Shown in pieces: positions 37,119 to 46,598 of a DNA stretch of 64,000 nucleotides (positions are counted from its first letter, which is position 1; each line of letters begins with the position of its first letter). Source of the stretch: Aquisphaera giovannonii (lineage in GTDB: Bacteria; Planctomycetota; Planctomycetia; Isosphaerales; Isosphaeraceae); NCBI RefSeq assembly GCF_008087625.1, contig NZ_CP042997.1:8122001-8186000 (forward strand), written 5' to 3'. Below the pieces are notes generated by a model. It was not told the origin of the DNA. It did no database searches and was given only the letters and a program-made list of their open reading frames with translations. The position numbers and the translations under genes are program-made.

Positions 37119-37419
37119 CGAAGTCCAGGGGGCCGTCTATCGAAGTGACGGAGCGACTCCTGGGGACGACCTCGCAGCGGGTGCCGCACTCGGGGCATTT
37201 GACCGAGCGGGTCGCGTGCGAGGCCAGCTCCCCCATGTGACGGGCTTGCACCGTACGGCTGAGCCGCCGCCCCAGCTCGTGGGCACGGGCTTCGATGACC
37301 GAGTAGTGGGGGATGCCCACCACCGTGCCGTCGGCCCGATCGAGGGCCACGGCGACGCGTGCCGCCTCCTTCAGGAGTTGGTCCAATCTCGCCTGAAGTT
37401 CGGCCATCGTCCCATCCAT
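37048..37419 (-). CDS. ISKra4 transposase, N-terminal part (orfA)
   Basis: 123 codons, the zinc-ribbon head of the transposase: Cys75/Cys78 in 'CPECGTRC' and Cys107/Cys110 in 'CPRC', preceded by a helical segment. ATG 37419 is preceded by GGAGG. The frame runs 71 nt into orfB; only residues up to about 115 are like the family, the remainder ('PPGGAGP') is out-of-frame. A +1 shift within the C6 run would fuse it to orfB. Confidence 0.82.
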   Translation of the reverse strand: MDGTMAELQARLDQLLKEAARVAVALDRADGTVVGIPHYSVIEARAHELGRRLSRTVQARHMGELASHATRSVKCPECGTRCEVVPRSRSVTSIDGPLDFDEPMGHCPRCRRGFFPPPGGAGP

Positions 37420-37549
37420 GGATCGGCCTCCGCCGGGGTAGATCGGGCCTCCAAAGCACCGAAGGGCCGCACTCTACCACGGAACCCCCGCGTTCCTCCA
37501 TTGACATCCTCGTCCTCGCAGTAGAAGGCGCAGAAGCTGACGTGCACCC

Positions 37550-37558
37550 GAGTGCCTC
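37550..37558. repeat. Target-site duplication, right copy (GAGTGCCTC)
   Basis: Exact copy of 35796-35804 at the right end of the ISKra4 element. The next gene (lpxB) starts 98 bp further on. Confidence 0.9.
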
Positions 37559-37656
37559 ACGCCCCGACGATTCGCCTTCCCGGATCCGCGCCGATCTGTT
37601 ACGAACCTGCCAGCCACCCAGGACCGTCCGATCACGCAGGGAAGCGAGAGCGGCAC

Positions 37657-38922
37657 ATGAAGTTCTTCGTCTCGGCCGGCGAGCCCAGCGGCGACCTCCA
37701 CGCCGCCAACCTGATCCATGCCCTGCGCGAGCGGCTGCCGGGTGCCACCTTCCTCGGCTATGGCGGGCCGCGGATGGCCGCCGAAGGGGCGGAGCTGATC
37801 TACCCGCTCGTCAACCTGGCGGTGATGTGGTTCCTCCAGGTGTTCGCGAACATCGCCACGTTCGTCTGGCTCATCTTCCGCGCGGATCGCTGCTTCCGCG
37901 AGGAATGCCCCGACGCCGTGATCCTCGTCGATTACCCGGGGCTGCACTGGTGGATCGCCCGCCGGGCGAAGGCGCGGGGCATCCCCGTCTTCTACTACGT
38001 CCCGCCCCAGCTCTGGGCCTGGGCCGGCTGGCGCGTGAAGAAGGTCCGGAAGTTCGTGGACATGGTCCTCTGCAGCCTGCCGTTCGAGCCCGACTGGTAT
38101 CGCGAGCGAGGCGTGGCGAACGCCGAATACGTCGGCCATCCGTATTTCGACGAGCTCGACGAGCGCGAGCTCGACGGGACGTTCCTCCGCGACTGGGGCG
38201 TCGAGGCCCGCGGCGGCCCCCTGGTGGCGATCCTCCCCGGATCGCGGACGCAGGAGTTGAAGCGGAACCTGCCGATCATGCTCCGCGCCGCCGCCCTGCT
38301 CGCGGCCGACCACCCCACCGCCCGGTTCGCCGTGGCGGCCCTGCACGACCGGCACAAGGCCCTGGTCGAGCAGATCATCCGGCAGGCCGTCGCCGACCCC
38401 GAAGAACCCGAGTTGCCGGCCATCGAGGTCCACGCGGGCCGCACGCCCGAGCTGATCCGCCTGGCCGACGTCGCCTGGTCCGTCTCCGGCTCGGTCAGCC
38501 TGGAGCTGATGATGGAGGCCCTGCCGACGGTCATCCTCTACAAGCTGAACGCGATCGACCTCTTCATCGCCCGCCCATTCATCAAGGCGAAGTTCATCAC
38601 CCTGGTGAACCTCCTGGCGGACGCCGAGCTCATGCCGGAATACCTCACCACGCGCGACGTCTCCGTCGAGCTGGCGGCGCACGCGAGGACGTGGCTGGAC
38701 GACCCGATCGCCATGGCGAGGGCCACCGCCAACCTCGCCGCACTCCGCCTGGAGGCCGCCCGGCCGGGCGCATCCCGCCGGGCCGCGGGTCGCATCGCCG
38801 ACTGGATGGAGTCGCATTGGGGCGTCCCCGCCCCGCACGGGGCCGCCTACCACGGCCCCCACGCCTCTCGCGAAGGCAAGGGTGCCGAGGCGGCCCCACC
38901 CCCGGGGTCCGCGAGCCGCTGA
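37657..38922 (+). CDS. lpxB: Lipid-A-disaccharide synthase
   Basis: 421 aa. 'FFVSAGEPSGDLHAANL' at the N-terminus, 'GYGGPRMAAEGAELIYP', 'VDYPGLHWWIARRAKA', 'YYVPPQLWAWAGWRVKK', 'AILPGSRTQELKRNLP' are LpxB (GT19) hallmarks. The enzyme condenses UDP-diacylglucosamine with lipid X at the inner membrane in lipid A synthesis. The start is ATG 37657. The ISKra4 element ends only 107 bp upstream, so native upstream regulatory sequence may have been displaced. The C-terminal 45 residues are an unconserved, low-complexity tail. Confidence 0.93.
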   Translation: MKFFVSAGEPSGDLHAANLIHALRERLPGATFLGYGGPRMAAEGAELIYPLVNLAVMWFLQVFANIATFVWLIFRADRCFREECPDAVILVDYPGLHWWIARRAKARGIPVFYYVPPQLWAWAGWRVKKVRKFVDMVLCSLPFEPDWYRERGVANAEYVGHPYFDELDERELDGTFLRDWGVEARGGPLVAILPGSRTQELKRNLPIMLRAAALLAADHPTARFAVAALHDRHKALVEQIIRQAVADPEEPELPAIEVHAGRTPELIRLADVAWSVSGSVSLELMMEALPTVILYKLNAIDLFIARPFIKAKFITLVNLLADAELMPEYLTTRDVSVELAAHARTWLDDPIAMARATANLAALRLEAARPGASRRAAGRIADWMESHWGVPAPHGAAYHGPHASREGKGAEAAPPPGSASR

Positions 38923-39038
38923 CGCGTCCCCGATCCCGCAAGGCGATCACCCGGGCCTGGCCGGCCAGGGACCGGCCACACGAAGACGCCAGACGCGGCC
39001 GGCTCGACGGGCCGCTCGCGCGGGGTCTGCCGCTGGGC

Positions 39039-39605
39039 CTACCTCCCGCCCTGCTCCAGCGCCATCCGAAGATACGATCGCGGCTCGACCTCACCCAGGC
39101 CCAGCGTGGCGGCCAGCGACAGGACCGCTCGTTGCGCCGCCGCGAGGTCCTCCCTGGACGCCGCGAACGCCTCCACCTCGGCGAAGTCGCCGAGGCCCTG
39201 GGCCCGGTCCAGGACGACCTCCAGCGGCCTGCCCTCGTGATCCAGGTGGAAGCTCTCCCTCCGCTTGCGGATCGTGGCGACGTGGCGGAAGCCGAGTCGA
39301 TCCAGGAGCCGAAGGAGCTTCTCCATCTCCTCGGCCCCCCGGCCCGCCCCGATCTCGATCTCCTCGCGGGTCTTCGTCGGCCCGGCGTGCTTCGGGCCCT
39401 TGTAGGTCATCCGGTTCACGCCCTCCTCCACCAGCCGGCGGACGCGGAACGCCTCCCCGGTCTCGGCGAAGTCCCGCCCCGGGTGATTGAAGTACGAATC
39501 CTCCTGGGTCTGGACGGCCCCCGGTCGGGCCCCGAGCTCGCCCAGCCGCCCGGCGATCGCGGCGTGGTCCACGCCGCGGTACTTGACCTCGATCTCGAAA
39601 CTCAT
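39039..39605 (-). CDS. CYTH-domain protein (class IV adenylate cyclase-like)
   Basis: 188 aa. 'MSFEIEVKYRG' holds the ExExK motif that names the CYTH triphosphate-tunnel fold; 'EAFRVRR', 'MTYKGPK', 'REEIEI', 'RKRRESFHLD' and 'LEVVLDRAQGLGDFAEVEA' supply the basic and acidic tunnel residues. The family includes thiamine triphosphatases, polyphosphatases and class IV (CyaB) cyclases; the exact reaction cannot be read off. ATG 39605 starts right at the motif. It converges on lpxB and is divergent to the SPFH gene. Confidence 0.9.
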   Translation of the reverse strand: MSFEIEVKYRGVDHAAIAGRLGELGARPGAVQTQEDSYFNHPGRDFAETGEAFRVRRLVEEGVNRMTYKGPKHAGPTKTREEIEIGAGRGAEEMEKLLRLLDRLGFRHVATIRKRRESFHLDHEGRPLEVVLDRAQGLGDFAEVEAFAASREDLAAAQRAVLSLAATLGLGEVEPRSYLRMALEQGGR

Positions 39606-39683
39606 GCATCCACCCCGCTGCAACCAGCCCGGGCTCTCCGGGATGGTCGCGAATGTGCCGCGTGCCGCGCGATTCCCCCGAAT

Positions 39684-39712
39684 ATTCCAACGTCCCTGCG
39701 AATACTCGTCAA
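39684..39712 (-). promoter_or_regulatory. Probable promoter of the CYTH gene
   Basis: On the minus strand: -35 TTGACG (39712-39707), spacer 17, -10 TGGAAT (39689-39684). Matches 5/6 and 4/6. Predicted leader is about 70 nt to ATG 39605. Confidence 0.45.
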
Positions 39713-39834
39713 ATACGAGGGGCCGAACGACCCCCACGAGCCTGACGACCAGGTAAAATGCGCGGAGCGAAGACGCTCTACGGGTGTTCCGGTCTGAGAC
39801 CGCCTCCGCGCACTCGTTCACCAAGGAGTATCCT

Positions 39835-42257: not shown

Positions 42258-42707
42258 TCAGCCCATCGCCTTCCAGAGCATCGCCAGGACGAGGAGCCCT
42301 CGCAGGCTCCAGGCGGCCGTCCGCATCCAGTTCGTGGACACGAGGCGTCGCTGGACGTCGGGGGCATACTCCCGCAGCAGGGAATCGTGGCAGGGGACCT
42401 GCACGAAGGCGGTCGAGGCCCAGAGGACGACGACCAGGCTCAGGCCGAGCCACACCTGCCAGGCCGGGATGCCCGCGGGCCTCAGCCAGAACAGGAGCAC
42501 GGCGGTCGCCGCCTCGACGAGCATCGGCGGCCCCACGACCCAGGTGGTGAGGTCCATGTGACGCCGCTGGTAGGCCAGGTACTCGGCCCGGCCGGCGTGC
42601 GCGAACAGCGGGTAGTGGACGACCTGCACGAACCAGATCAGTCCGACCATGAAGAGGGTCGAGGCCAGGTGGGCCAGGAAGAGGATGCGGGCCGCGATCT
42701 CATTCAT
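42258..42707 (-). CDS. Small membrane protein of unknown function
   Basis: 149 aa with four hydrophobic segments (about 8-30, 55-75, 82-104, 130-147). 'VVHYPLFAHAGRAEYLAYQRRHM' in the first loop and 'CHDSLLREYAPDVQRRLVSTNWMRT' are conserved-looking, and several His and Arg face the loops. No name can be assigned. It overlaps the upstream SRPBCC gene by 4 nt (ATGA) and is the last gene of the operon. Confidence 0.75.
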   Translation of the reverse strand: MNEIAARILFLAHLASTLFMVGLIWFVQVVHYPLFAHAGRAEYLAYQRRHMDLTTWVVGPPMLVEAATAVLLFWLRPAGIPAWQVWLGLSLVVVLWASTAFVQVPCHDSLLREYAPDVQRRLVSTNWMRTAAWSLRGLLVLAMLWKAMG

Positions 42708-43270
42708 CCGCGATCCGTCCCCGTCGCCCCGACGCCCCCAAGACCGGGCCCGGTCGCGGTGCGGTCGCCGGGCTCGGATGCGGGCGTCCCGCGGCCTCCT
42801 GCGGCCTCCACGATCCGTCGCGTGGCCTCGTGGCGATAGGCGAACATCCGCTCCAGCTTCCGCCGGACGAACGGGCCGCCCATCAGCAGCCCGACGGCGC
42901 CCATGGGGACCTGATACTCGACCTCGTCGCGCAAGATCGTCCCGCCCTGCCCGTCGTCCAGGAAGCGATGGCGATGGTACCACCAGGCGAACGGCCCCGA
43001 CTCCTGCCGATCCGCGAACAGGTGCGGCGGCTCATATTCGGTGTGGACGGCCACCCACTGGACCGGGATCGGCCCGACCCGGCCGCGGAGCACGACCCGG
43101 CTCCCCAGCCGCAGGGAGCCGGCCGATTCGGCCACCCGCATCGACTCCCAGGGGGGAATCAGCCGGGTCAGGGCCTCGGGGCTCTCGTGGAACCGGAAGA
43201 CGGCGTCCGGCGGGGCCTGGATCCGGCTCTCCTTCACGAAGGTCTGACGCAGGGATCGACCCGAATTCAT
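42704..43270 (-). CDS. SRPBCC-family (cyclase/dehydrase-like) protein
   Basis: 188 aa. 'RQTFVKESRIQAPPDAVFRFHESPEALTRLIPPW' is the opening of the SRPBCC fold; 'PPHLFADRQESGPFAWWYHRHRF' and 'ILRDEVEYQVPMG' complete the hydrophobic-ligand cavity motif of the polyketide-cyclase-like subgroup. It likely binds a lipid or aromatic ligand in the cytoplasm. It overlaps the genes on both sides by 4 nt. The C-terminal 30 residues are low complexity. Confidence 0.85.
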   Translation of the reverse strand: MNSGRSLRQTFVKESRIQAPPDAVFRFHESPEALTRLIPPWESMRVAESAGSLRLGSRVVLRGRVGPIPVQWVAVHTEYEPPHLFADRQESGPFAWWYHRHRFLDDGQGGTILRDEVEYQVPMGAVGLLMGGPFVRRKLERMFAYRHEATRRIVEAAGGRGTPASEPGDRTATGPGLGGVGATGTDRG

Positions 43271-43680
43271 GGCATACGCCCTTGCCTGGCCGCGTCCCGG
43301 AGGATCATCGCGAACGGGATCCACCATATCAGGTCATTGGTCAGGATCGTCAGCCCGAATAGGGGGGAGAACCTCCCCTTCAGCAGGGCGACGGAGAATC
43401 CAATCGGCCCGAAAATCTTCCCGAGGAGCCCCACCAGGACGATCGGCCAGTGCCTGCGTGGGTCGCCCGCCGCGGCGATGTATCCGACCCCGTAGACGCC
43501 GACGATCATCCCGACGCACTGCCAGATCTCGGGATAGTTGATCCGCTCCATCCCGGTGACATCGAACAGGAGGTGCGGAAAAGCGATCGTCGCGGCCCCC
43601 CAGGCGAGGTTGTAGACGCCCGCCGCAAGGAGCCACCGCCGCGCCCACGTCGGCGAGGCGCTCGCGATCGGGTCGCTCAT
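43267..43680 (-). CDS. Small four-helix membrane protein
   Basis: 137 aa; hydrophobic segments at about 15-35, 55-75, 80-100 and 110-130. 'GVYNLAWGAATIAFPHLLFDVTGM' and 'PEIWQCVGMIVGVYGVGY' repeat in similar proteins located beside SRPBCC or alkyl-phosphatase genes, but no function is known to me. It starts 17 nt after the SDR stop and overlaps the SRPBCC gene by 4 nt, so it is firmly inside the operon. Confidence 0.75.
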   Translation of the reverse strand: MSDPIASASPTWARRWLLAAGVYNLAWGAATIAFPHLLFDVTGMERINYPEIWQCVGMIVGVYGVGYIAAAGDPRRHWPIVLVGLLGKIFGPIGFSVALLKGRFSPLFGLTILTNDLIWWIPFAMILRDAARQGRMP

Positions 43681-43697
43681 CGTGGGGACCTCTCTCG

Positions 43698-44423
43698 TCA
43701 TCGGGCCCGGACCGAGCCCAGGCCCCCGTCGACCCCGAGGACCTGGCCCGTCACCCATCGCTGCTCGGGGCTCAGCAGCCAGGCGATGGCCGAGGCCACG
43801 TCCTCCGGCTCGCCGATCCGCTTCAGCGGGTGCATGGCCGTCGAGGCCTTGAGCGTCGCCTCATTCCGGGTCAGCGGTTCGGTCAGCGGGGTGCGGACGA
43901 GGCCCGGGGCCACGCAATTCACCCGGATGCCCAGAGGCGCATAGGTCGCCGCCGCGGCGAGGGCGAGACCGATCACGCCGGCCTTCGCGGCCGCGATGGC
44001 CTCCTGGTTGGTGAGCCCGATGCGGGCCGCGGCCGAGGCGACGAGGACGACCGAGCCGCCGTCCTTCATGATCCGTTCCGCGGCGCGGACGACCGCGAAG
44101 GCCGAGGTGAGGTTCGTCGCCAGGATCGACGACCACTCCTCCTCGGTCGTCAACTGGGCCGACCTGAGCATGAGCGAACCGACGCAGTTCGCCACGCCGT
44201 CGATCCGGCCGTATTTCTCCAGGGCCTCCGCCAGGCACGCCTCCACCTGGCCGAAGCGCGTCGCATCAACCTGGATCGCGTGGGCCGAGAGCTCCTCGGC
44301 CAGGGGCTGAAGCTTCTTCGGATCGCGGCCCGCCAGGACGAGACTCGCCCCATCGGCCGCGAGCCGACGGCAGAGCGCCGAGCCAATGCCCCCCGTTGCG
44401 CCGAAAACGACGTAGCTTGGCAT
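43698..44423 (-). CDS. Short-chain dehydrogenase/reductase-like protein lacking the catalytic Tyr
   Basis: 241 aa. Rossmann NAD(P) motif 'GATGGIG' (Gly8-Gly14), 'NCVGS' (like NNAG) near 79, Ser130 and Lys147 are present, and the C-terminus 'APGLVRTPLTEPL' and 'VTGQVLGVDGGL' fits SDRs. The catalytic Tyr of the YxxxK motif is replaced by Ile143 ('EAIAAAKAGV'). It may therefore be a binding protein or a variant enzyme using another residue. It leads an operon with two small membrane proteins and an SRPBCC protein. Confidence 0.87.
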   Translation of the reverse strand: MPSYVVFGATGGIGSALCRRLAADGASLVLAGRDPKKLQPLAEELSAHAIQVDATRFGQVEACLAEALEKYGRIDGVANCVGSLMLRSAQLTTEEEWSSILATNLTSAFAVVRAAERIMKDGGSVVLVASAAARIGLTNQEAIAAAKAGVIGLALAAAATYAPLGIRVNCVAPGLVRTPLTEPLTRNEATLKASTAMHPLKRIGEPEDVASAIAWLLSPEQRWVTGQVLGVDGGLGSVRAR

Positions 44424-44742: not shown

Positions 44743-45921
44743 TCATCGGGCTCCCGGACGGGCCGTGCCGACCGGGGCGGCGAGCGTACCCAGGACCGGG
44801 CCGATCAGGTGGCGATCGAGCGCCTCGTCGAAATCGAGCGCCGGGTCGAGCGGCTCGCCGTTGCGGACGACGATCACGTCGAGGCTCGGGACGACGAGGA
44901 GGAGCTGGTGGCCCGCCCCGGCTCCCCCGAACGCATCGTCCGGGGCGGATCTCCAGAGGCGCGTCCCGTCCGCCCCCTGGTTGACCCACCAGCCGAGGCC
45001 CGAGTGCCCGGGGACGCAGCCGGGCTCGAGCGCCCGGGCGACGGCTTCCGGCCGGAGTCGCTGGTGCCCTTCCCACACGCCCCGCCGCAGCATCAGGCGG
45101 CCGACGCGGGCCACGGCGTCCGGGCTGTAGGAGCCGCCGCCCCAGGTCGCCACCAGCGGCAGGCCGTCCACCTGCGTCGTCTTCCCATACCCGATGGACC
45201 ACTCATCGTACGGGACGCCCAGCGGCTCCATGACCCGGTGTTTCAGCAGGTTGCGAAGGTCGGGATCGGGAGCACCGCGAAGGCTCGCCGCCAGGCAGTA
45301 GGCCAGCATCGCCACGCCGGGATTGCTGTACCGGGCCCTCGTGCCGGGAACGTCGATGATCGACGCCTCGTCCCGGGCGAGCGTGAACGGATCGCGCGGG
45401 GGCGGCAGGTATCTCCAGAAGTCGCCCTTCCAGCCCCGGAGCCACTCGTGAGGGACGCCCCCTCCCTCCGCGTCCTCGATGCCCGACGTGTGCGTCGCCA
45501 GTTGCCGGACGGTGATGGCCCGCCGCGACGCGTCGCGGCCCCACCCGGGCACGTAGCGGGCCGCGGGGTCGTCGGGGCGGATGAGGCCGTCTCCCATCGC
45601 CAGGATCAGCCCGAGGCCCCCCACGATGGCCTTGGCCATGGAGGCCGTGTAATGCGGCCGGTGCCGCCCGTGCCCCCCCGCATAGCGCTCGTAAGCGACG
45701 CGGTCGTGGCGGATGACGAGCAGGGCCGTCGTGCGGCGTCCCTCCAGGGAGGTCCAAACCTTCTCCATCGCGGACCGGTCGATGCCGGCATCGTCCATCG
45801 ACGGCGGGCCCCACTCCCACGCCTTCCGCCGAGCCGGCTCGTCGCCCCGGGCGAACGCCGACAGCGCGGCCCAGGCGCACGCGATCGCGACCGGTGAACG
45901 CCAGCGATCGAGACGCTTCAC
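44743..45921 (-). CDS. Exported class C beta-lactamase-family serine hydrolase
   Basis: 392 aa. Signal peptide (1-27, 'SPVAIACAWAALSAFARG'), then the serine hydrolase domain with S94-M-A-K97 ('YTASMAKAIV'), Y198-S-N200, and the C-terminal 'GAGHQ' in place of KTG/HxG. This is the beta-lactamase/penicillin-binding-protein-like family, which includes esterases and D-aminopeptidases; antibiotic hydrolysis should not be assumed. GTG 45921, with GGAGG upstream, was preferred over ATG 46020 because it opens into the signal peptide. Confidence 0.85.
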   Translation of the reverse strand: MKRLDRWRSPVAIACAWAALSAFARGDEPARRKAWEWGPPSMDDAGIDRSAMEKVWTSLEGRRTTALLVIRHDRVAYERYAGGHGRHRPHYTASMAKAIVGGLGLILAMGDGLIRPDDPAARYVPGWGRDASRRAITVRQLATHTSGIEDAEGGGVPHEWLRGWKGDFWRYLPPPRDPFTLARDEASIIDVPGTRARYSNPGVAMLAYCLAASLRGAPDPDLRNLLKHRVMEPLGVPYDEWSIGYGKTTQVDGLPLVATWGGGSYSPDAVARVGRLMLRRGVWEGHQRLRPEAVARALEPGCVPGHSGLGWWVNQGADGTRLWRSAPDDAFGGAGAGHQLLLVVPSLDVIVVRNGEPLDPALDFDEALDRHLIGPVLGTLAAPVGTARPGAR

Positions 45922-46598
45922 CAGGGCGAGCCTCCACCATCCGTACCGCCGAGGGCCACCCGCGGCGGGGGTTCGCCCACCGGCCTGGACGCCCCGGACA
46001 TCATGGCCGGGCGCAGGCACAGGCCCCAGGGATCAGGCATACCTGATTGCACCAGGTCCCACCGGCAATCGCCCCAAGAATCTTGCCTTGGCCCCTGTCG
46101 GAAGGGGCCTCGGGTGCGCCATATCTGTAATCGAGCGTCGCAGTCCCCGCCGCCCGCCGGCCGCTTGGGCACGGGCCCCCCGCCGCATCGATGGATCGAT
46201 CCCCGACCCGAACTCAACAATTTTATGATAATTAAAAAGTTTCCACATGATATCACGGGCGCGGGATTCGCAAACCCACGCGATGTCATGAATCGGGGCG
46301 TGCGAGCCTCGGCCCGGCGGGGTCCGGGCCCGGGAATCCGCGGCTGGATCGAGCCGCCGATGCCCTCGACTGAGGATGCCGTGAAGGGCGGTCCCCCGCC
46401 CGAGAGGCCATGATAGGGATAGGGCACGGCTCTTACCGAGAGGTGGATCGGGGAGGAGAGCCGGCGAATCGAAGGTTCACGCGCGTTTTGATCAATGCGC
46501 GACGATGCCACCATCTCCTTCGCAGCAGGACTCGTGGGCCATTGCACGAGCCCTGCATCGTCCGGCTGCGTCGGAGCACCTGCTGGGGAGACAAACTC
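45922..46598. other. Non-coding region with AT-rich island
   Basis: 677 nt. The sequence at 46206-46255 is strikingly AT-rich (TTTATGATAATTAAAAAG) in otherwise GC-rich DNA. No frame has convincing codon bias. It may hold the hydrolase promoter and remnants of lost genes. Confidence 0.5.

Follow-up and report, generated by a model that had tools for sequence, protein, structure and literature searches.

What becomes of an SDR when the residue by which its chemistry is usually recognized has gone? In the parts of two papers that bear on it (PMC3541173, PMC4635001) the Tyr of the YxxxK motif counts as a defining mark of catalysis by SDRs. The stretch of Aquisphaera giovannonii DNA analysed here (64,000 nucleotides, positions 8,122,001 to 8,186,000 of NZ_CP042997.1, with a G+C content of 70%; 'the window' below) carries, at the head of an operon of four genes, an SDR in which that place is taken by Ile. 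Is the Ile an accident of one gene or the mark of a family, and what might a protein of this kind do?

The tyrosine-less SDR and its operon

By homology and by fold the protein is an SDR, and it fails the Tyr criterion of the classical SDRs. It scores 216.9 bits with adh_short_C2 of Pfam (cut-off 27) and has the Lys, Ser and Asn of the classical site, Lys147, Ser130 and Asn104, together with the glycine motif GATGGIG; the Tyr of YxxxK is missing. The scores with FabG (TIGR01830, 169.7 bits with a cut-off of 297.75) and with NmrA of Pfam (14.6 with a cut-off of 27) fall short, and of 240 NCBIfam matches none of the 25 best rises above its cut-off. The initial annotation had reported that Ile143 replaces the Tyr while Ser130 and Lys147 are kept, and the window sequence bears this out. 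Its further statement that the NAD motif remains is right for the glycines and not for the first Thr of the classical TGxxxGxG, since position 7 is Phe in the window protein; in 166 rows Gly8 is present in 162 and Gly14 in 155, while no more than 14 have Thr at position 7. The same genome has 34 other SDR matches, none more than 37% identical to the window SDR, and the seven of them that were read (L002-L008) all have the Tyr.

The other three genes of the operon, P2, P3 and P4 (Table 1), are joined as had been claimed, by one 17-nt gap and two 4-nt overlaps. For P2 and P4 Pfam gives nothing above any cut-off. Homologues of P4 have a weak likeness to the four-helix membrane proteins of the Anthrone_oxy and UPF0093/HemJ families: 12 of 22 match Anthrone_oxy (PF08592), at best with 1.4e-5, and 4 of 22 match UPF0093/HemJ, whereas the window P4 itself matches neither (0 Pfam families). 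Its predicted model is a confident four-helix bundle (95.8), a shape for which the fold search, with generic four-helix bundles only among the matches listed, is uninformative.

Table 1. Positions in the window of the operon, its junctions, the site codons of the SDR and the surrounding genes (counts are of distinct homologues)
Feature	Position	Strand	Remark
SDR-fold protein lacking the catalytic Tyr ('HxxI' family)	43698..44423	-	241 aa, ATG start
Gln90 codon	44154..44156	-	His in 218/223
Ser130 codon	44034..44036	-	Ser/Thr in 222/223
Gln140, codon CAG	44004..44006	-	His in 222/223, sole exception the window copy
Ile143, codon ATC, at the place of the catalytic Tyr	43995..43997	-	I/V/M in 223/223
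Lys147, codon AAG	43983..43985	-	223/223
His198 codon, substrate-lid region	43830..43832	-	222/223; Gln in L330
Gap from SDR stop to P2 start	43681..43697	-	17 nt
P2, 137-aa membrane protein	43267..43680	-	weak likeness to BphX, under the cut-off
Overlap of P2 stop and P3 start	43267..43270	-	ATGA
P3, SRPBCC (Polyketide_cyc), 188 aa	42704..43270	-	Pfam 41.4 bits, above cut-off of 23.4
Overlap of P3 stop and P4 start	42704..42707	-	ATGA
P4, 149-aa four-helix membrane protein	42258..42707	-	weak anthrone-oxygenase/HemJ-type likeness of homologues
SPFH/Band 7 protein, 782 aa	39784..42132	+	
Beta-lactamase-family serine hydrolase gene	44743..46020	-	
812-aa ORF	37359..39797	+	no Pfam match

A clade with isoleucine and fixed histidines

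In the window's own class homologues occur in 138 of 297 genomes, the window included (E 1e-40; the others 43-72% identical), and in a sample of its phylum, some of it from the same class, in 45 of 246 (E 1e-45). The clade spans four further genome groups beyond the phylum, those whose seed loci are labelled, in order, Opitutales, Acidobacteriaceae, Acinetobacter and Rhodospirillaceae (names that rest on the labels of L026, L014, L087 and L040), with homologues in 27 of 194, 12 of 199, 28 of 194 and 16 of 240 genomes, tallies that at E 1e-40 or weaker may include a few Tyr-type SDRs. Residues were counted over 244 loci and the window, which give 226 distinct rows and, after removal of the Tyr-type L284, L311 and L314, 223; the counts cover matches with a locus and so leave aside 15 of the 45 in the phylum sample and 7 of 27 and 9 of 29 places in the further groups.

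At position 143 these 223 homologues have Ile (213), Val (9) or Met (1), and Tyr in no case. That Ile143 might be a lone mutation or a sequencing slip was rejected on this family-wide pattern, and homologues with an intact Tyr, which were to count against the initial annotation, did not appear among the 223. Around the vacated place the older residues persist: Lys147 is invariant, Ser or Thr stands at 130 in all but one homologue, and Asn104 is present in 212 with His in the other 11. New ones accompany them. His140 has a single exception, the window's own Gln, and His198 likewise one, the Gln of L330; His90 gives way in five, namely in the window, which has Gln, in L235, which has Asn, and in L310, L312 and L313, which branch deeply, and position 141 is Glu in 213 and Asp in 7. 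Stretches such as 'NHEAIAAAK' and 'KASTAMHPLGRIGE' are signatures of the family. To call the protein nucleotide-binding and SDR-like, as had been done, was thus to understate it, His140 and His198 being as conserved as they are. In the Rhodospirillaceae-labelled group all 16 further loci have His140, His198, Ile or Val at 143 and Lys147; 10 of the 16 lack His90 and 12 lack Glu141, and therefore only His140 and His198 are general.

In a FastTree phylogeny of 216 rows a branch with an SH-like support of 98 separates all 162 family rows from 54 other SDRs (52 with Tyr, one with Ser, one with Phe). Given this single clade, one early replacement of the Tyr is the simplest history. Among the 60 control SDRs used below, one (L037) also has His at position 140, a residue that is thus met with among Tyr-type SDRs too, and two outside the HxxI family lack the Tyr, L055 having Ser and L059 Phe.

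The best sequence and fold matches of the HxxI SDR are classical SDRs of the FabG/glucose dehydrogenase type (PF13561; 2a4k, 3svt and FabG structures), with which it has in common the fold, the cofactor glycines and the Asn, Ser and Lys; it differs from them in the Tyr of YxxxK, absent from all members read, and in having His140 and His198 fixed and, mostly, His90 and Glu141. For a His-bearing homologue, that of L010, AlphaFold2 predicts the classical SDR fold with a mean pLDDT of 86, and the solved structures nearest to the model are ordinary SDRs, for instance 3svt, 1uls and actinorhodin ketoreductase. His140, three residues before the place of the Tyr, would face the substrate pocket; the model is weak just there and at His198, with block means of pLDDT of 64 and 48, and the arrangement that it gives to the histidines is only tentative.

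Eugenol synthase falls under NmrA. The basil enzyme, of the PIP family, is described in part of PMC1991597 as an SDR-fold NADPH reductase in which the Lys is kept and the Tyr lost. In the kept Lys and the lost Tyr it resembles the HxxI SDR, and it is a precedent for an NADPH-dependent enzyme of this fold that does without the Tyr; it differs in belonging to the NmrA/PIP sequence family, below whose NmrA cut-off the window SDR lies, and in that the same part of PMC1991597 describes no counterpart of the His set. Within the open-licence literature we found no description of a Tyr-less SDR with the His, nor of one in photolyase or planctomycete carotenoid loci. If a Tyr-less clade that has kept the remainder of its site and gained new histidines is truly what it seems, then the SDR fold can move its acid/base. 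Annotation pipelines would presumably label all these proteins plainly 'SDR family oxidoreductase'.

The window copy is an odd member of its own family. At 32 positions 95% or more of the family agree, and it departs from them at 3 (K87R, H90Q, H140Q); measured with ten close relatives, it deviates at 8 of 107 invariant positions, the corresponding jackknife values for the relatives running from 0 to 10. Only 3 of the 32 conserved positions being changed, the gene is therefore not in general decay, and the idea of a decaying pseudogene was rejected in that sense, constraint at the level of the clade looking normal. That His90 and His140 are both lost in this one copy suggests that the two work together, and also that the copy is a poor model of the chemistry of the family; without them the window protein may be altered or inactive. 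Its nearest relatives, at most 72% identical, belong partly to its own family and partly to others, and in two genomes of the same genus there is no match to it, a pattern that would fit horizontal gain.

Photolyase, pigment and membrane-protein neighbours

Recurring neighbours of the SDR, each identified through one member by Pfam or NCBIfam, were turned into profiles: the photolyase-related protein DPRP, DUF2867, fasciclin, DUF1365, CMAS, DUF1295, FAD amine oxidoreductases, a CrtI-family desaturase, a family-2 glycosyltransferase (GT2) and an acyltransferase, with the cross-matching FAD16, FAD20 and CrtI profiles taken together in the counts. They were read over 186 loci with 173 distinct SDRs, the other 13 repeating one already counted (a duplicate genome record or an identical protein). 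Over 139 loci from the class of the window, itself among them, the neighbours no more than 5 kb from the SDR are DPRP (19 loci), GT2 (20), acyltransferase (19), DUF2867 (22), fasciclin (17), P2 (15), P3-type SRPBCC (22) and P4 (19). A set of 92 family loci, drawn from the phylum sample and the four further groups (97 less the Tyr-type L284, L311, L314, L335 and L336), could be set against 60 control SDRs (58 with Tyr, with L055 and L059 as the other two), the flanks being at most 1.5 kb for the family and 1.5-4 kb for the controls.

A gene for an FeS (6-4) photolyase/cryptochrome (DPRP) lies within 1.5 kb at 25 of the 92 family loci and at none of the 60 controls (p 9e-7); within 5 kb it is found at 34 of the 173 distinct loci, in 11 of these 34 on the same strand with no more than 61 nt between the matched parts, and the Rhodospirillaceae-labelled group has it at that distance at 10 of its 16 loci. 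It is a neighbour in most genome groups looked at and the adjoining gene in several. The same family flanks hold DUF2867 at 11 loci, P3 at 11, P4 at 11, P2 at 4, fasciclin at 2 and GT2 at none; those of the controls, at the same threshold of E 1e-6, hold one DUF2867 and two GT2 and no DPRP, P2, P3, P4, fasciclin or CFA/DUF1365/DUF1295 gene, and at E 1e-8 neither GT2 nor CrtI.

Presence in the same genome points the same way. Among 248 genomes of the window's class (G000-G247, a universe inferred from the genome count and the handle numbers), 82 have both SDR and DPRP, 39 the SDR only, 21 DPRP only and 106 neither, an odds ratio of 10.6 (p 9e-17) in which kinship is uncorrected; in the window's own family, over 44 genomes, the figures are 13, 5, 3 and 23. 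In the Rhodospirillaceae-labelled group DPRP occurs in 4 of 5 genomes with the SDR and in 29 of 118 overall (p 0.013). The corresponding numbers for SDR and P4 in the 248 genomes are 83 with both, 38 with the SDR only, 34 with P4 only and 93 with neither (odds ratio 6.0, kinship again uncorrected). Many loci have none of the profiled neighbours and most have no DPRP nearby (34 of 173 have it within 5 kb); with 39 of 121 SDR genomes lacking DPRP altogether, no single partner can therefore be needed. The window operon has no light-stress gene adjoining it, and the DPRP gene of its genome lies 3.1 Mb away (G000:C1:5067696).

At 20 of the 173 distinct loci GT2 stands directly upstream of the SDR, with gaps of 23-79 nt, in a carotenoid-type cluster (CrtI family, E 1.7e-124; Glycos_transf_2; Acyltransferase). 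The order of CrtI-family genes, acyltransferase, GT2 and then the SDR is seen in L134, L139, L200, L202, L218 and similar loci, also in L016 and L019, and gyrB/gyrA often lie behind the SDR on the opposite strand. This link is seen only in a portion of the class to which the window belongs and in a few named relatives. Of the 92 family loci 0 have GT2 (2 of 60 controls do) and 25 have DPRP; the photolyase link is therefore the general one. In a few loci CFA/DUF1365/FAD genes are near the SDR. A second SDR with a YGASKA-like motif occurs near the HxxI SDR in seven alphaproteobacteria-labelled loci (L385, L387, L388, L389, L392, L395 and L398), in three of them (L387, L388, L392) with CFA/DUF1365/FAD genes that resemble those for furan fatty acids. 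Since this second SDR is a separate, Tyr-type protein, the HxxI SDR is not to be equated with RSP_1087, and the proposal that would identify it with the SDR found in furan-fatty-acid operons (RSP_1087/PME6630 type) finds no support.

How far does the operon of the window travel as a unit? A fixed four-gene operon everywhere was rejected. The SDR has all three of P2, P3 and P4 within 5 kb at 9 of the 173 distinct loci, one of them (L400) from another genome group, so that the conserved unit first proposed does exist and is one of many arrangements. Fusions speak for the ties within it. P2 and P3 share a single frame in 11 ORFs, which come from 10 loci (L009, which equals L118, and L012, L121, L123, L158, L217, L223, L227, L241 and L244), and P2 is therefore tied to P3. 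Peroxiredoxin-type AhpC/TSA domains are fused to P2 in L131:1771-2721 and L321:48-998 (above cut-off) and in L235:13489-14460 (just below), and to P4 in L012:5698-6636 and L227:1090-2043. Beside the SDR of L052 a P3-type SRPBCC is fused to an Epimerase-DUF1731 (TIGR01777-like) protein, as checked with Pfam, the SRPBCC part scoring 21.1 with a cut-off of 23.4; L269, L270, L275, L276, L279 and L334 have the same look by sequence. In the window P2 and P3 are split and in different frames, where at the ten loci they are fused, and a gene fission or a frameshift in the window lineage would account for this.

Weighing the readings

A part in defence against light and its oxidants is suggested because the loci hold genes of the kinds that make up singlet-oxygen and light regulons. 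The singlet-oxygen (RpoE) regulon of Rhodobacter sphaeroides, in the part of PMC7074977 that concerns it, has phrA, CfaS, the fasciclin RSP_1409 and the SDR RSP_1087, and like kinds of genes make up the light (LitR) regulon of Pseudomonas in a portion of PMC9758184. Taking the relevant parts of these sources and of PMC7380195 together, what the regulons share with HxxI loci is photolyase/CryB, an SDR, fasciclin, CFA/UfaM, DUF1365/UfaO and an FAD oxidoreductase. Such neighbours accompany part of the homologous loci and are absent beside the window operon; a difference from both regulons is that the second SDR, which in some of the alphaproteobacteria-labelled loci lies near furan-type genes, is Tyr-type and distinct from the HxxI SDR.

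The reading to which we lean, while giving it only an even chance, is that the HxxI SDR is an NADP(H)-binding oxidoreductase of photo-oxidative defence whose acid/base role has moved to histidine. Catalysis in an altered form would have been retained because Lys, Ser/Thr and Asn stay where the Tyr has gone, with His140 and His198 fixed. The family would then be an old and distinct one within the SDR fold, in which the catalytic Tyr was probably swapped once, early, for Ile or Val, with retention of the Lys for the cofactor, of Ser/Thr and of Asn, and His140, His198 and mostly His90 and Glu141 became fixed. It most likely still binds NADP(H); His140, aided by His198, His90 and Glu141, could act as acid/base in place of the Tyr, on a substrate that may be a hydrophobic carbonyl, an enone or a product derived from a peroxide. 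Expression under light stress would be expected, with partners that are often the FeS (6-4) photolyase/cryptochrome, in one lineage carotenoid-type genes, and less often furan-fatty-acid-like, fasciclin or DUF2867 genes. P2, P3 and P4, linked in relatives among themselves and with peroxiredoxin domains, presumably have their place of action at the membrane, with a hydrophobic ligand held by P3. Where the initial annotation had looked to a membrane lipid, photo-oxidative stress is the better-supported context. As the partner gene of FeS (6-4) photolyases and of carotenoid-type clusters the HxxI SDR would be an unexplained, and testable, part of bacterial light defence. Against this stands the window copy, in which the loss of His140 and His90 amid normal constraint is odd if both are essential. 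A bolder version, to be entertained only tentatively, sees a re-invented active site: the cluster of His140 and His198, as a rule joined by His90 and Glu141, would be a proton relay or a metal site facing the nicotinamide, in a light/singlet-oxygen module coupling NADPH to the membrane proteins P2/P3/P4 and to peroxiredoxins, and the window copy would be a natural double mutant.

The same copy can be read otherwise. It keeps its fold residues and its operon despite having lost both His, its operon neighbours are of unassigned function, and the Tyr is missing throughout the family, all of which would suit a protein that has given up redox catalysis and become a nucleotide-binding sensor responsive to NADPH or redox state, or a scaffold for the membrane proteins or the photolyase, its His binding a ligand, a metal or a partner. 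We regard this as a doubtful though serious contender, given that Lys147 is invariant and Ser/Thr130 and Asn104 nearly so, and a pure scaffold is not expected to fix new His across genome groups while keeping the old active-site residues. The carotenoid-type loci, with the SDR directly after the glycosyltransferase at 20 of them, and the CFA/DUF1365/FAD genes of a few others make a case for an enzyme of pigments or modified lipids, which would reduce an intermediate on the way to C30 carotenoid glycosides or furan-type lipids, be it an aldehyde, a ketone or an enone, the photolyase being linked to it only through shared light control. We think this unlikely: carotenoid or furan genes are missing from most loci, a second SDR of Tyr type is at hand near the furan-type genes of alphaproteobacteria-labelled loci, and in R. 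sphaeroides, according to part of PMC7380195, deletion of RSP1087, the SDR of the operon there, left the fatty-acid profile unchanged. To make the protein an accessory of the FeS (6-4) photolyase/cryptochrome, at work on the lumazine/pterin of its antenna or in flavin chemistry, agrees with the photolyase neighbour in most groups and with the co-occurrence, for which kinship is uncorrected, and is yet quite improbable with SDR genomes that have no DPRP and DPRP genomes that have no SDR. Ordinary neutral decay of one SDR copy, for which it can be said that the window alone has Gln at both 90 and 140, is hardly to be believed: it is contradicted for the Tyr, whose loss is family-wide and old, and the few deviating positions and normal clade-level constraint do not favour it; for the two His of the window copy decay is a possible account.

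As to the surroundings of the operon, scans for promoters and terminators with a sigma-70 consensus that may not suit the host, and for repeats, gave 0. The 812-aa ORF has a GC3 of 0.587, where about 0.9 is usual, and is perhaps the shadow of a gene on the opposite strand. About 320 nt upstream of the SDR, likewise on the minus strand, lies the serine hydrolase gene, and the gene for the SPFH/Band 7 protein is downstream of the operon and convergent with it.
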